Part shown: piece by piece, positions 160 to 39,726 of the stretch
Layout: each line of letters starts with the position of its first letter
Position numbering within the stretch: position 1 is the first letter of the stretch
Origin: an uncultured bacterium
GTDB taxonomy: Bacteria; Planctomycetota; Phycisphaerae; Phycisphaerales; SM1A02
Assembly: GCA_903891095.1 (NCBI GenBank)
Contig: CAITDI010000018.1
Coordinates: 1-40,818 of the forward strand
Direction of reading: 5' to 3'
Length of the DNA: 40,818 bases
Program-made: the position numbers and the translations under genes
The notes under the pieces: generated by a model
Told to the model about the DNA's origin: nothing
Databases searched by the model: none
Seen by the model: only the letters and a program-made list of their open reading frames with translations

Positions 160-256
160 AGGCTCACGCACGAAGCCCCACGGCCTCAACCACCAGTCGC
201 CCGAATGCCCGTGGGCGCAAGCCCACGGAACACCGGACGCGGGAGTCGAACCTCGT
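160..256. repeat. Dispersed hairpin repeat, locus 1
   Basis: This fills the gap between two convergent genes. It holds one full copy of the window's intergenic hairpin family: GAATGCCC at 203-210, an 8-bp perfect stem CCGTGGGC (209-216) / GCCCACGG (221-228) closed by a GCAA tetraloop, then GGAAC and a GGACGCGGGAGTCG tail. The left part (TCGAAGGCTCAC at about 157-168) matches another module of the same family seen near 20567 and 39679. No coding function is supported here. Confidence 0.75.
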
Positions 257-6940: not shown

Positions 6941-7039
6941 GAATGCCCGCAGACGGCAGTCTGCGGAACGCATGACGTCCGACACCACTTCCCCGACCAC
7001 CACGCAACCCGCGCCGCAGACTGCCGTCTGCGGGCACTC
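6941..7039. repeat. Dispersed hairpin repeat, locus 2 (inverted pair)
   Basis: Two copies face each other. The plus copy has GAATGCCC (6941-6948), stem CCGCAGAC (6947-6954) / GTCTGCGG (6959-6966), loop GGCA, then GGAAC. The minus copy has the same stem at 7033-7014 with GAGTGCCC outside it. The remaining gap up to the next gene at 7112 holds no other structure that I can support. Confidence 0.8.
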
Positions 7040-20496: not shown

Positions 20497-20540
20497 GGGG
20501 GCGGATCGTAGTTGCGATCGGGGGCCCAGCCACGACTTGC

Positions 20541-20730
20541 ATGAATGGCCGTGGGAGGGGGACCATCGAAGGCTCACACAACCCGCGCCGCAGGCTTACG
20601 CCTGACGGGCATTCACAGCTGACGAAGGCTCACGGCCGTGACGGCTCACATCGGTCGCCCACCAGTTGCAGGATACCCAAGCCCCAAAGCCTCCGAGCGG
20701 GAGCCCGCGGAACAGCGGACCCGCGACTCA
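20541..20730. repeat. Dispersed hairpin repeat, locus 3
   Basis: Contains a minus-oriented copy: stem CCGTCAGGC with bulged T (20608-20600) / GCCTGCGG (20595-20588) closed by GTAA, with GAATGCCC on its 5' side and GCGCGGGTTGTGTGAGCCTTCGAT after it. A diverged second copy at about 20675-20730 (GGAGCCCGCGGAAC, GGACCCGCGACTC) runs to the stop codon of the HglS-like gene. Confidence 0.75.
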
Positions 20731-31412: not shown

Positions 31413-33134
31413 ATGCGACTCGACCCACGCACCCCTCGTCGATCCCTTGCGTTCAGCGCCACAGCCGCCCTCGCGCTTTCGGCGTGCGCGGCTTTCGTAA
31501 CGGCTGGCGCCAACGCCGACTCGACGGGCCTGCTCTACCACTCGACCTCCAAGGTCGTCGACGGGCAGACCTACTTCGTCATCGACGTGTTCGTCGGCTA
31601 CGAGAACCCCTGCGACCGCCTGCTGGTGTACTGGAACACGATCGCGCAGCCGTACGGACTGTCGTCGGGGTTCTTCTTCCACGCATCCTCGGCGGACTAT
31701 GCCGCGACGTCGCGCCCGAGCCCGGGCGCGGCGGCGATCTGGGATGTCGACACGTTCATCTCGGTGGGCGGAAACGCGCAGCGCCAGACCAACGGCTGCT
31801 ACTTCGTCACGCCCGACTGGGACGAGTCGTTCACGCTGACCTCGGCCTACCAGCCGGGATGCATGTTCATCATTCCGCCGCTGCTGGGCTTCAACTTCGC
31901 GGGACCGGACCACAAGGTGCATGTGGGACGGTTCACGATCCACGAGTCGCAGTACCTGCCGGGCGCAACGCTGCACTTCTCGGGGCGATTCGGGAGCGGC
32001 GGACAGCCGGGGCAGGGACCGTGGACGCACAACTACGAACTCGACATCCCGTTCCAGCTCACGTCGGCGGGTTCGACCACCGACGCGCTCGACGAGCCTT
32101 CGCCTGAGCCGTTCTGCTACTCGCCGCCGCCGGACGGCGGTGCAGGGGGCGGCGCGGGGGGCGGTGCGGGGGGCGGTTCAGGTGGTAGCGGCACGGGAAC
32201 CGAACCTCCGGCCGGCATGGTCAACCGAAACCCTCCCGACCTCGACTTCAACGGCGACGGCAACGCCGACCTGATGTGGTTCTGCAGCATCAACGGACAG
32301 ACCAGCCACTGGCAGATGAGCGGCCTGTCGCGCATCGGCGGCGGCGGGTTCACCTGGGCCGCGATGAGCAACTCGGTCGCGCTCGGCGCGGCGGACATGA
32401 ACGACGACGGCACGCCCGAGGCGTTCTTCTTCCAGCCGTACGGGCGCTGGGTGTTCATGTGGACCTTCGTGGGCACGCAGCGGTTGTCGGCGGAGCTGAT
32501 CTTTACCGAGAACAGCGGCTGGACGCCCGTCGCGGTCGGCGACTTCACGGGCGACGGGCGCGCGGATGTGCTGAGCCGTTCGAGCGACGGGCTCACCTAC
32601 CGCGTGCGGCCGATCGCGTACCGCACGGTGTACGCGGCGCGGAACATCGCGACGGTCGCGGCGGGGTTCGGCTTCGTTGCGACGGGCGACTTTGACGGCA
32701 ACGGCATCCAGGATCTGCTGCTTCGCGCGTCGAACGGCGTGTACTGGGTCAAGCGGATCGGCGTGACGGGCGTGGCGAGCATGCTGCCGATCACCGCCGG
32801 CGCGATGGCGACCGAGTGGCGCATGGAAGGCGCCGGCGACCTCGATGGTGACTTCGACGACGACGTGATCTGGCACAACACCGTGACCGGCGAAGTGCGC
32901 GGCTGGCTGATGCAGGACGGCTTGCGCCAGACCGGCGGGTTGATCCGCACGGGCGTGGGCGCGAGCTACAGGGTGATCTCGATCCTCGACACCGACCACG
33001 ACGGCCACGACGACGTGATCTGGCGCAACGAAGCCACCGGCGACGTCTACGCGTGGAAGATGAACGGCCTCGTCCGCGAGAACGGCGCGTTCGTGCGCAA
33101 CGTCTCGACGGTGTGGAGCGCGGTGAACAGGTGA
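31413..33134 (+). CDS. Secreted FG-GAP/VCBS-repeat protein
   Basis: 573 residues from ATG 31413; signal segment SLAFSATAALALSACAAFVTAGANA. The N-terminal domain (about 30-230) is beta-rich and ends at PFCYSPPPDGG. A Gly linker (GGAGGGAGGGAGGG) separates it from six calcium-type repeats: DLDFNGDGNADLMWF, AADMNDDGTPEAFFF, VGDFTGDGRADVLSR, TGDFDGNGIQDLLLR, GDLDGDFDDDVIWHN and LDTDHDGHDDVIWRN. Such repeats form a beta-propeller, often for surface binding. The upstream in-frame codons from 31263 overlap the divergent gene and are not expected to be used. It converges through repeat DNA on the DUF4139 gene. Confidence 0.88.
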   Translation: MRLDPRTPRRSLAFSATAALALSACAAFVTAGANADSTGLLYHSTSKVVDGQTYFVIDVFVGYENPCDRLLVYWNTIAQPYGLSSGFFFHASSADYAATSRPSPGAAAIWDVDTFISVGGNAQRQTNGCYFVTPDWDESFTLTSAYQPGCMFIIPPLLGFNFAGPDHKVHVGRFTIHESQYLPGATLHFSGRFGSGGQPGQGPWTHNYELDIPFQLTSAGSTTDALDEPSPEPFCYSPPPDGGAGGGAGGGAGGGSGGSGTGTEPPAGMVNRNPPDLDFNGDGNADLMWFCSINGQTSHWQMSGLSRIGGGGFTWAAMSNSVALGAADMNDDGTPEAFFFQPYGRWVFMWTFVGTQRLSAELIFTENSGWTPVAVGDFTGDGRADVLSRSSDGLTYRVRPIAYRTVYAARNIATVAAGFGFVATGDFDGNGIQDLLLRASNGVYWVKRIGVTGVASMLPITAGAMATEWRMEGAGDLDGDFDDDVIWHNTVTGEVRGWLMQDGLRQTGGLIRTGVGASYRVISILDTDHDGHDDVIWRNEATGDVYAWKMNGLVRENGAFVRNVSTVWSAVNR

Positions 33135-33164
33135 CGCGCGTGCGGCGGCGAGAGCCGGGAGCCG

Positions 33165-33675
33165 TCGATCATCTGACTCCCATGTCCAACGTTCCGCGGG
33201 CTTCCGCCCAAAGTCTTCAGGCCTCGGGCATTCATGCAACTTGTGGCCGGTAGCCGTCAGCCCACGAAGACCGTGAATGCCCGTCAGGCGGAAGCCCGGG
33301 TGCCCGTCAGGCGAAGCCCGGGTGCCCGTCAGGCGAAGCCCGGGTGCCCGTCAGGCGAAGCCTGGGTGCCCGTCAGGCGAAGCCTGCGGAACGGGTTGCG
33401 TGAGCCTCCGAATCGTGGGACTTCCATTCGACTCCCACGTCCAACGTTCCGCGGGCTCACGCCCACGGGCATTCATGCAACTTGTGACCGGTAGCCGTCA
33501 GCCCACGTCAACCGTGAATGCCCGTCAGGCGGAAGCCCGGGTGCCCGTCAGGCGAAGCCTGCGGCACGGGTTGTGTGGGACTTCAACTCGTGAGACGTCG
33601 ACGATTCGAATCCGACGTCAACCGTGAATGCCCGTCAGGCGCAAGCCTGCGGCACGGGTTGCGTCAGCCGTCGAT
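33165..33675. repeat. Dispersed hairpin repeat, locus 4 (expanded cluster)
   Basis: This 580-base gene-free gap is nearly filled with repeat modules. Minus-oriented copies: 33170-33235 (GGGC/GCCC with loop GGAA) and 33449-33468 (CCGTGGGC/GCCCGCGG, loop GTGA). Plus-oriented copies: 33275-33390 (22-bp tandem), 33545-33564 (loop GAA) and 33632-33652 (CCG(T)CAGGC/GCCTGCGG, loop GCAA). A unit of about 89 bp at 33230-33318 recurs at 33471-33559 with four differences. Confidence 0.85.
33275..33390 (+). repeat. 22-bp tandem array inside hairpin locus 4
   Basis: Five units of GTGCCCGTCAGGCGAAGCC(C/T)GG run head to tail from 33275, the first slightly longer (GGAA instead of GAA). Each unit is itself a small hairpin. 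No spacers separate the units. Confidence 0.9.
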
Positions 33676-33714
33676 CCGTCAGCCTTCGATCCGTGCGCCT
33701 TCGCCCCGCCCCAC

Positions 33715-35598
33715 TCACTCCGGCAGACCCGTCATGTTCACGTCCTTCGGCTTGGACACGAGCACGGTCCACGAGACGCTCTTCGTCGCGGGCTTGCCGG
33801 CCTCCGCGCGCGCGGGCAGCTGCACGAGCCACTTGAGGATCCCCTGCGGCTTCTCGTCGGCGACGTACTTCGCGTCCGTCACCACGGGCTGCGAGAGATC
33901 CTTGAGCTCGACCTTGATCTGCTCGTTGCGCGAGACAGGCATGCGGTCGACGAGCTCGATCGTGACGGGCTTCGCGTCGGTGCTGGTGAGATCGACGCGG
34001 TACTCCCACTTGGTCACGTCGGCCTTGTCGAAGACGCCCTTCTCGCTCGTGTCCTTCTTGACGATCACGCGCTTGGCCTCGATGCGGCGATCGGTGCCGA
34101 GCCAGAAGGTCATCTCGGCGCCGGGCGCGAGGTCGGGCAGCGTGGTCGAGCCGACGGAGTCGCCGCCGAGGAACACCGTCGCCGGGCCCGCGAGGAACTG
34201 GTACTGCGACGCGTTCGCCGCGACGGCCTTGAGGTAGACCGCGCTCTCGACGAGCGGCCGCGCGACATGCACGAAGCTCGGCTTGGCGTCGACGGTCGCG
34301 ATGCGCTGCTTGCGCGAGCGCTGCGCGTCGCTCGGGATCGTGACCGCGCGCGCGAGCGGGAACGACACCACCGTGCCCGTCTGCACCGCGCTCGCGTCGG
34401 CGAAGGCCTCAGCCATCGCCTTGTTCTCGACGACGGCGTCCGGCGAGCCGGTCATCGGTTCGCCGCCTTCGAAACCACCGGTCCCACCCGGACCGCTCGG
34501 ACGGCCCGCCTTGCGCATATCGCGGCGCGCGGGCGCAGGCGCACCCGGCATCATCGCCGGCGCATCCATCGCCATCGACGCCACGACCGGCATCGGCACG
34601 ACGACATCGACATACACCGGCGGCACATCGCCCGGCGCCGCGCGGCGCGTGGGCTGCGCGGTCGAGAGCGTGAGCTTGACGTCGTTCCAGCTTTCGCCGG
34701 TGGCCTGGCGGATCTCGGCGTCGTACTCGATGGTCAGCGCGCCCGACTCGACATCGGCGCGCACCGCGTAGCGCGGCGCCCAGCCCGCGTTGCCGACGAG
34801 GTAGCGCAGCGTGACATCCGCGCTCGCCGCCATCGACTGGCCCACGCTCACCACCGCCGTGCGCTCGACCTTGGTCTGCCCGCCGAGCGCGTTGACCTTC
34901 GCCTGCAGCGCGTTGACTTCGTCGGTGGTCTTGCGGATCTCGGCGTCGAGCTTGGCGCGGTCGGCGATCAGCTGCGCCTGCGTCGCGTCGAGGAACGCGA
35001 TCTGCTTGCCGAGCGCCTCGGGGTCGAGGGACTTCGAGCCGAAGTCCTTCGCGCTCTCGGTCGCGGTCTTGGTGCGGATCGCGGCGAGCAGCGTGTAGCG
35101 GTCGTTGATCGCCGCCATCTGCATCGTGTGCATCTCGGCCACGCGCTTGGCGGCCTCGAGCGCGGTGATCGCGTCGCGCAGGTCGGGGTTGTTGCTCGTG
35201 TCGGACTGCGTGACCTTCTCCTCGTAGCGGACATCGAGGAGCTTGGCGCCGCCGCGCGCGCTGCTCACGGTCGCCTGCAGCGTGGCGGGATCGAGCGCGC
35301 CGGGAAGGTTCTCAAAGCGCAGTTCAAAGAGGCCCTCGCGCGCGGGCGAAGTGGCCGTGCGCGCGATCATCGCGCGACCTTGGTAGAGCGTGACTTCGCT
35401 GATCGGGGCGGTGGCCGCGACGGACTCGGCGGCGAGTGCGTCTTGGCCAAGCTCGGCGCAGCTCGGCATCGATGCGGCGCAGCTCGGCATCGATGCGGCG
35501 CAGCTCGGCATCGGCGCAGCGTGGAGCAGCGTCGGCGCGGAGCCGATCATGATGGAGGCGAGAAGGAGACCGGTGCCGATCGAGTGTCGCGTGCGCAT
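33715..35598 (-). CDS. DUF4139/DUF4140 (mucoidy-inhibitor MuiA family) protein
   Basis: 627 residues with signal peptide MRTRHSIGTGLLLASIMIGSAPTLLHA. After a short repeated linker (MPSCAAS twice, then MPSCAE), the N-terminal DUF4140 strand EVTLYQGRAMIARTATSP is followed by a coiled-coil helix region (about 140-235). The DUF4139 half contains TLRYLVGNAGWAPRYAVRADVESGALTIEYDAEIRQATGESWNDVKLTLSTAQP, the hallmark of the family, and ends VSWTVLVSKP. A Pro/Gly insert (about 335-375) interrupts it. Family members are envelope proteins of unclear role, named for a Rhizobium mucoidy phenotype. Next gene upstream lies 48 bases away on the same strand. Confidence 0.92.
   Translation of the reverse strand: MRTRHSIGTGLLLASIMIGSAPTLLHAAPMPSCAASMPSCAASMPSCAELGQDALAAESVAATAPISEVTLYQGRAMIARTATSPAREGLFELRFENLPGALDPATLQATVSSARGGAKLLDVRYEEKVTQSDTSNNPDLRDAITALEAAKRVAEMHTMQMAAINDRYTLLAAIRTKTATESAKDFGSKSLDPEALGKQIAFLDATQAQLIADRAKLDAEIRKTTDEVNALQAKVNALGGQTKVERTAVVSVGQSMAASADVTLRYLVGNAGWAPRYAVRADVESGALTIEYDAEIRQATGESWNDVKLTLSTAQPTRRAAPGDVPPVYVDVVVPMPVVASMAMDAPAMMPGAPAPARRDMRKAGRPSGPGGTGGFEGGEPMTGSPDAVVENKAMAEAFADASAVQTGTVVSFPLARAVTIPSDAQRSRKQRIATVDAKPSFVHVARPLVESAVYLKAVAANASQYQFLAGPATVFLGGDSVGSTTLPDLAPGAEMTFWLGTDRRIEAKRVIVKKDTSEKGVFDKADVTKWEYRVDLTSTDAKPVTIELVDRMPVSRNEQIKVELKDLSQPVVTDAKYVADEKPQGILKWLVQLPARAEAGKPATKSVSWTVLVSKPKDVNMTGLPE
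35451..35518 (-). repeat. 21-bp repeat after a signal peptide
   Basis: Unit GCTCGGCATCGATGCGGCGCA occurs perfectly twice (35461-35481, 35482-35502) with shortened copies on each side. It encodes MPSCAAS repeats, placing one Cys in each copy directly after the DUF4139 protein's signal peptide. Confidence 0.9.
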
Positions 35599-39597: not shown

Positions 39598-39726
39598 GAA
39601 TGCCCACGGCCTGAAGACTTTGGGCGGAAGCCCGCGGAACGTTGGACGTGGGAGTCGGATCGTCGACGTCTCACGAATCGAAGGCTCACACAACCCGTGC
39701 CGCAGGCTTCGCCTGACGGGCATTCA
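39598..39726. repeat. Dispersed hairpin repeat, locus 5
   Basis: Plus copy at 39598-39657: GAATGCCC, inserted segment ACGGCCTGAAGACTTT, short stem GGGC (39622-39625)/GCCC (39630-39633) with loop GGAA, GCGGAAC and GTTGGACGTGGGAGTCGG. This about 60-bp block is nearly identical, inverted, to 33170-33235. Minus copy at 39700-39719: CCG(T)CAGGC/GCCTGCGG with loop GAA, ending GGGCATTC. The rest of the gap to 39804 shows nothing more. Confidence 0.8.

Follow-up and report, generated by a model that had tools for sequence, protein, structure and literature searches.

Y1 transposases of the RAYT type belong to the class of enzymes called HUH. According to PMC8266576, such an enzyme (TnpA-REP) binds and cuts one strand of the folded REP, including a REP with an 8-bp stem and a 3-nt loop. 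The repeat family described here resembles the REPIN and BIME elements of RAYT systems, as portrayed in PMC3116915 and PMC8266576, in being a 5′-tagged short hairpin found in spaced inverted pairs, in its intergenic location and high copy number, in the long hairpin formed by a pair, and in the presence of RAYT genes in the genus; its closest counterparts in PMC8266576 are the 'group 3' REPs, which are perfect short palindromes, one having an 8-bp stem and a 3-nt loop. It differs from the elements of RAYT systems in its tag, which is GAATG(C) here and GGGTG, GAGTG or TGTG in sister species instead of GTAG, and in that no cognate RAYT was found in the genome under study. The CGTC-tagged REPs, as PMC3733652 describes them, are similar in their 8–9 bp stems, 4–5 nt loops, dimers and apparent lack of a dedicated transposase, but the present repeat has neither a conserved CGTC end tag nor A-T pairs at the stem base, and in one sister species a candidate RAYT adjoins it. 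It also lacks GTAG or GT[AG]G at the 5′ foot, and thus falls outside the GTAG and CGTC superfamilies as PMC3733652 defines them. Non-canonical TnpA-REP genes (subclass 2.6 and class 3, class 3 occurring mainly in Planctomycetes) are, according to PMC6006769, adjoined by putative motifs without GT[AG]G; our repeat is like these REP-like structures in the missing GT[AG]G tag, whereas the candidate gene of the sister genome G004 scores as an ordinary REP-associated tyrosine transposase. We describe what is probably a new family of the REP/BIME/REPIN type, the kind itself being already known.

The window, by which we mean the whole 40,818-nt stretch of DNA analysed, is contig C18 of a draft genome (G000; 3.6 Mb, 131 contigs, 98.6% complete). 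A sequence-only reading had reported five intergenic loci with a shared layout, and on direct inspection this layout was present at all five, with exact GAATGCCC occurring ten times in the window against 1.35 expected (100 shuffles, maximum 5). Allowing one mismatch gave 36 occurrences, which is the chance level, so that the signal lies in exact GAATGCCC together with the hairpin. Each half-element combines a tag with a stem of about 8 bp, whose loop in the simple form has 3–4 bases, followed by GG(A/C)AC and a tail of 16–20 bases. The tag in this genome is GAATGC, the stem begins with CC (base CCG/CGG in most copies) and finishes with GG, and (A/C)AC follows the second arm; most half-elements measure 29–30 bp, with long variants of up to 59 bp. 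The flanks had been described as differing from locus to locus; instead, the hairpins are followed by two conserved 3′ tails of about 16–20 bases, alpha (consensus GGACGTGGGAGTCGA) and beta (consensus GGGTTGCGTGAGCCTTCGA). The five loci together hold 11 half-elements, mostly in inverted pairs, plus one tandem array, placed in the window as follows.

203..231, + strand: single alpha half, loop GCAA, perfect 8-bp stem
6941..6969, + strand: left half of a tail-to-tail pair, loop GGCA
7011..7039, - strand: right half of the pair at 6941, with the tag GAGTGCCC
20585..20614, - strand: half-element with loop GTAA, degenerate remnants of further halves around it (judged by eye)
33135..33714, no strand: convergent intergenic region of 580 bp that holds the cluster
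33191..33233, - strand: alpha half, exceeding the standard length by 14 bases (CTGAAGACTTT-type insert)
33278..33384, + strand: beta hairpin repeated in tandem, 4.8 copies of a 22-bp unit
33364..33392, + strand: final hairpin of the array at 33278, with beta tail
33446..33474, - strand: alpha half, loop GTGA
33516..33567, + strand: beta half with a doubled hairpin
33626..33655, + strand: beta half, loop GCAA
39598..39640, + strand: alpha half in the long insert form, left of a tail-to-tail pair
39697..39725, - strand: beta half with a GAA triloop, right of the pair at 39598

The stem listed earlier as (T)CAGGC/GCCTG does have the paired layout, but it contains one extra unpaired base. Inserts of the CTGAAGACTTT type stand before the stem in alpha halves at 33191-33233 and 39598-39640 of the window and also in contigs C31, C34, C53 and C88, one C31 insert copy carrying CCTGAAGA three times over. 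Immediately 5′ of hairpins in C37, C90, C51 and C29, the tag and 5′ arm recur as short direct repeats (e.g. CCGTGAATGCCCG..), which look as if replication had slipped at the hairpin.

Searching the whole genome with the pattern GAATGCCC-N(12-40)-GCGGMAC gave 93 matches, among them non-family sites (e.g. C21:4472, C35:23487 and C61:27386) and nested double counts, against none for the reversed control. The proposed covariance-model search was carried out with a model built on 32 distinct hairpins (R1), which gave 105 matches in this genome at E up to 1; sister genomes were matched with a broader model (R2, see below). The genome total came to 116 half-elements in 54 clusters, composed of 94 regular-expression matches in the fetched stretches (96 minus C38:34292 and C90:2435, left out as chance) and 22 further model matches, with a pair on C112 (R1, E 0.64) also left out. 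Alpha tails were assigned to 62 half-elements and beta tails to 51, with three unclear. Rfam at gathering scores returned no match for the repeat in the window, nor was the family named in the titles and abstract openings of the open-licence literature searched. The view of a structured, dispersed repeat with real covariation (described below) was borne out.

Clusters contain one to five halves, with a single half in 19 of the 54. Tail-to-tail neighbours (n = 26) are spaced by 33–56 bp, with one at 105 bp, a mode of 41 bp and 12 at 41–42 bp, and 23 of them combine an alpha with a beta half; the spacing of head-to-head neighbours (n = 26) is broad, at 27–130 bp, and ten neighbours are directly oriented. 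Since tail-to-tail pairs are nearly always alpha-beta at a preferred spacing, in contrast to the broad head-to-head distances, the natural unit is probably the alpha-beta inverted pair of about 100 bp, which is bounded by GAATGCCC/GGGCATTC inverted repeats. The family thereby shows both the unit of REP/BIME/REPIN elements (a short palindrome of about 20–40 bp in high copy; here mostly 29–30 bp, n = 116) and their inverted doublet. A pair from this genome and a pair from G003 were folded, and each formed one long hairpin on either strand, at z -5.2 to -7.4 relative to shuffles as DNA (both strands) and -5.5 to -7.1 as RNA (three strands tried). The 52-base doubled hairpin of the window alone, folded as DNA, was not significant (z -1.7; 14 of 200 shuffles as good).

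The stems had been said to vary yet stay paired through compensatory changes. In the set of 32 distinct hairpins from this genome, two-sided alterations affect three pairs, one of these through one sequence only. Three is an ordinary number (reached by 206 of 500 shuffles); the count of cells altered on both sides (18 against a shuffled mean of 4.9) and the percentage paired were reached by none of 500. Across the genus, five of the eight pairs are altered on both sides in 13 chosen sequences, with 104 of 104 cells paired, and the sampled loci of seven genomes contain 23 distinct unbulged 8-bp stems in a list that required pairing. When the family tail but not pairing was required, 162 of 175 candidates were fully paired; of the remaining 13, seven belong to the bulged form, whose register was misread, and one seems to be a chance match. 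We also applied a tree-aware test with independent-column simulation along a FastTree phylogeny, computed from about 50 columns with the stem included, to 148 unique sequences from seven genomes, excluding the bulged type, G008, two G014 loci and rows with more than three mismatches. By fraction paired, five of the six variable pairs were matched by none of 1000 simulations and the sixth by 10, and by mutual information the values of pairs 3 to 8 were reached by 79, 98, 0, 7, 2 and 52 of 1000, so that by the latter measure pairs 5–7 are strong and the other three variable pairs are not. Pairing thus goes beyond these FastTree-based simulations, common descent alone does not account for it, and the compensatory changes exceed the tree-based null by fraction paired. 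One-sided changes on the tag strand gave G-T in eight and C-A in two distinct stems once the mis-registered bulge type was removed, which hints weakly at folding of the tag strand.

Of the 66 G..A tetraloops in this genome, 64 conform to GNRA and two are GGCA; eight further loops are GAA (tally of 91 rows, including a few chance coding matches). The wider loop survey left out 69 of 296 rows lacking a 6-bp stem at the foot, mostly coding, among which are eight long-insert variants of this genome and at least three G003 family members with a mismatch. Sampled simple hairpins of G003 and G009 have mainly GAA, GCA and GGA triloops, with two GCCA, and TTCA loops (printed by the script as TC within a T-A pair) dominate in G004 (56) and G007 (7), G004 also having 10 GAA loops; among the sampled copies GNRA loops belong to this species only. 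Mini-hairpins with GNA or GNNA loops (C-GNA-G, C-GNNA-G) are, as PMC4686876 reports, exceptionally stable in DNA, which contradicts the notion that GNRA is an RNA and not a DNA preference, and on that account a DNA rule accommodates most loops of the genomes other than G004 and G007, but not TTCA. GNRA loops thus prevail here but were not seen in the sampled sister copies, and GNRA-like loops and covariation by themselves are no proof of RNA.

All 54 clusters lie between genes, one of them overlapping a gene end by two bases. According to our own codon-usage gene caller, applied to 225 kb of stretches, 27 are in convergent, 17 in tandem and one in divergent contexts, with nine unclassified at contig edges; the same stretches also contain 11 convergent, 57 tandem and 28 divergent junctions without an element, but having been selected around elements they do not represent the genome as a whole. 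This matches the extragenic location preferentially 3′ of genes that is typical of REP/BIME/REPIN elements, one of the 45 classified clusters being divergent. The five loci of the window are all 3′ of at least one gene, as had been claimed, but those at 6941, 20585 and 39598 are also upstream of the next gene. Transcription running out of a gene first encounters a half oriented with it in 39 cases and against it in 40 (single halves, 14 and 13), unlike the expectation for a strand-specific transcribed element, and no intrinsic terminator (stem-loop followed by a T run) was found at 33100-33760 of the window.

At two junctions the insert is missing from sister genomes. The junction of an FG-GAP repeat gene and a DUF4139 gene (33135..33714) measures 580 bp here and 65 bp (an eye count) in G014; of six sister genomes examined, only this one had both genes in the fetched locus. 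The junction at 20497-20727 is 188–225 bp longer here than in G001, G002, G006 and G008, and 196 bp longer than in G015 (from coordinates); in G004, G005, G009, G012 and G013 the flanking genes are 1.6–4.3 kb apart, which is uninformative. Gain of the insert in this lineage is the simplest reading at both junctions, and the sister junctions without it indicate that the repeat is dispensable in those species.

Searches keyed on GAATGCCC in 60 relatives, the genome_contigs collection and 396 other genomes of the class found the family nowhere else, and relaxed-pattern matches in 25 genome stretches and four viral contigs showed no family hairpin by eye. The resulting impression of a single-species repeat arose because the tag differs in sister species, and a species-specific origin was rejected. 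With the window cluster as DNA query against 16 genomes of the genus, the hairpin was found in six others (G003, G004, G007, G008, G009 and G014); the fetched sister loci have the hairpin and tails as here, mostly with other tags (GGGTGC, GAGTGC, TGTGTGC), so that the tags overall are mainly GAATG, GGGTG, GAGTG and TGTG, and exact GAATGCCC occurs in one G008 copy. The broader model R2, built on 13 hand-chosen sequences after three bulged ones were removed for misalignment, was searched in 39 genomes at E up to 0.05. Matches numbered at least 150 in G004, 109 in G000, 59 in G003, 52 in G007, 50 in G009, 17 in G005, six in G014 and two in G011 (best 5e-9), with 0–4 weak matches in each of the remaining eight genus members (best E 0.0015). 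By these model matches, high in some genomes and at 0–4 in others, the hairpin family appears genus-wide but patchy. Outside the genus matches were weak (best E 0.0018); G046 and G051 each gave 18 weak matches, possibly other REP families of the order.

No RAYT had been noticed in the earlier reading, and none was found beside the family in the window's genome, but this genome does contain two Y1 (PF01797) genes, both flanked by another palindrome, GGCACGTGCC-NN-GCAC (sites include L031 at about 1330-1385 and 2100-2155, and the flanks of L032). On both strands with up to one mismatch, the GGCACGTGCC pattern gave 251 matches against 40 for the control, and the palindrome and Y1 genes are likely a separate RAYT-REP system; the two genes were rejected as cognate RAYTs because of these flanks. 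Their proteins score 51.6 and 55.4 bits against the NCBIfam REP-associated tyrosine transposase (cut-off 80), and a flank of the GGCACGTGCC kind was present at six of eight related Y1 loci, one per sister genome. The proposed search for a Y1 gene accompanied by the family's own motif yielded none in the window's genome and one in a sister species: three family hairpins lie within about 300 bp upstream of a Y1 gene on contig C15 of G004, with none seen downstream. Its protein scores 89.9 bits against the same NCBIfam family and weakly matches the solved TnpA-REP structure 4er8 (E 0.0039); a close homologue was not found in the window's genome, which has only the two weaker relatives. Family hairpins were absent from the fetched flanks, some of which end at contig ends, of the homologues G004:C14, G007:C455, G005:C87 and G002:C144 and of the partial G014:C591 and G005:C94. 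By eye, hairpins of other kinds border C14, C87 and C144; at C14, a paralogue of the C15 gene, they lie on either side and share the GGGTG tag. Co-occurrence of the C15 subtype with the repeat in 16 genomes gave a Fisher p of 0.11 (hand-entered table). From its position the C15 RAYT may be the cognate enzyme of the family; as the association is one-sided and the homologues are without family hairpins, it may also be a chance association. Eleven further Y1 proteins of the genus (L183-L193, from G009, G014, G008, G001 and G015), 370-446 aa in length and combining a Y1-like domain at the N-terminus with a long C-terminal region, were rejected, with no family-like hairpin in the fetched flanks. 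Sister RAYT genes at L205, L206 and L217 are flanked by further hairpin families (CACCACCTCCTGC-TTC-GCAGGAGGTGGTG, CACTACCTCCTGC.., GGGTGCCACCACT-TCC-AGTGGTGG).

We consider it probable that the family is a REP/BIME/REPIN-type repeat that acts as a single-stranded DNA hairpin and whose pairs were moved by a RAYT. The resemblance to REP/BIME elements proved stronger than first claimed, given the spaced inverted pairs, the tails, the insert-free sister junctions and the RAYT genes of the genus. In such a scheme the selected form would be the single-stranded DNA hairpin, exposed during replication, which a RAYT-type (HUH/Y1) transposase would recognise strand-specifically, and the enzyme would have cut pairs and copied them into gene ends; the window's species may have lost the RAYT beside the family, or the draft assembly may not show it. 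The earlier proposal of a structured RNA element at transcript 3′ ends, selected as RNA, could draw on the covariation of the stems, the GNRA tetraloops of this genome, the position of clusters nearly always downstream of a gene and the stable RNA folds of the two pairs. It is weakened, and in our judgement very unlikely, since orientation to transcription is even for first halves and singletons alike, each pair has its halves on opposite strands, GNRA loops are missing from the sampled sister copies, the same pairs are about equally far from shuffles as DNA, and Rfam had no match in the window. With the tag-strand form on opposite strands in the two halves, single-stranded DNA is the simpler substrate, and the repeat most likely works as a single-stranded DNA hairpin; an RNA or transcript-end role for individual copies is possible.

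Mobile DNA might also have been turned to host use between convergent genes, as barriers at transcript ends or stabilisers of mRNA 3′ ends, a role hypothesised for REPs in PMC3733652 and in keeping with the 27 convergent and one divergent among 45 classified clusters and with the folding of two pairs on both strands. We regard this as unlikely: purging of insertions in promoters or genes would give the same distribution, no terminator-like site was seen in 33100-33760, and the insert-free sister junctions show dispensability there. With its length of roughly 100 bp and its GAATGCCC/GGGCATTC boundaries, the pair could suggest a miniature inverted-repeat element derived from a DDE transposon of the cut-and-paste kind, GAATGCCC being the terminal inverted repeat, but single halves are common (19 of 54 clusters), each half folds alone with its pairing kept through sequence change, and the tag-adjacent bases look mirrored by eye, not directly repeated, which makes this the least probable reading. 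Integron attC sites were considered and dropped, as the units occur in both orientations and cassette-like arrays were not noticed. Returning to the REP/BIME/REPIN-type reading, a more specific version, which we put forward as doubtful but conceivable, is a REP population of more than 100 copies in a species that no longer has the transposase belonging to it; an unrelated RAYT would maintain the copies or still move them in trans, and tag, stem and loop would be rewritten from one species to the next under a rule for DNA hairpins (loops GNA/GNNA or TTCA). If true, it would show REP specificity switching between transposases. The family adds to the known REPs one with neither a GTAG nor a CGTC tag, and the sister genomes, with their diverged tags, stems and loops but preserved pairing, form a natural mutagenesis series for RAYT recognition.
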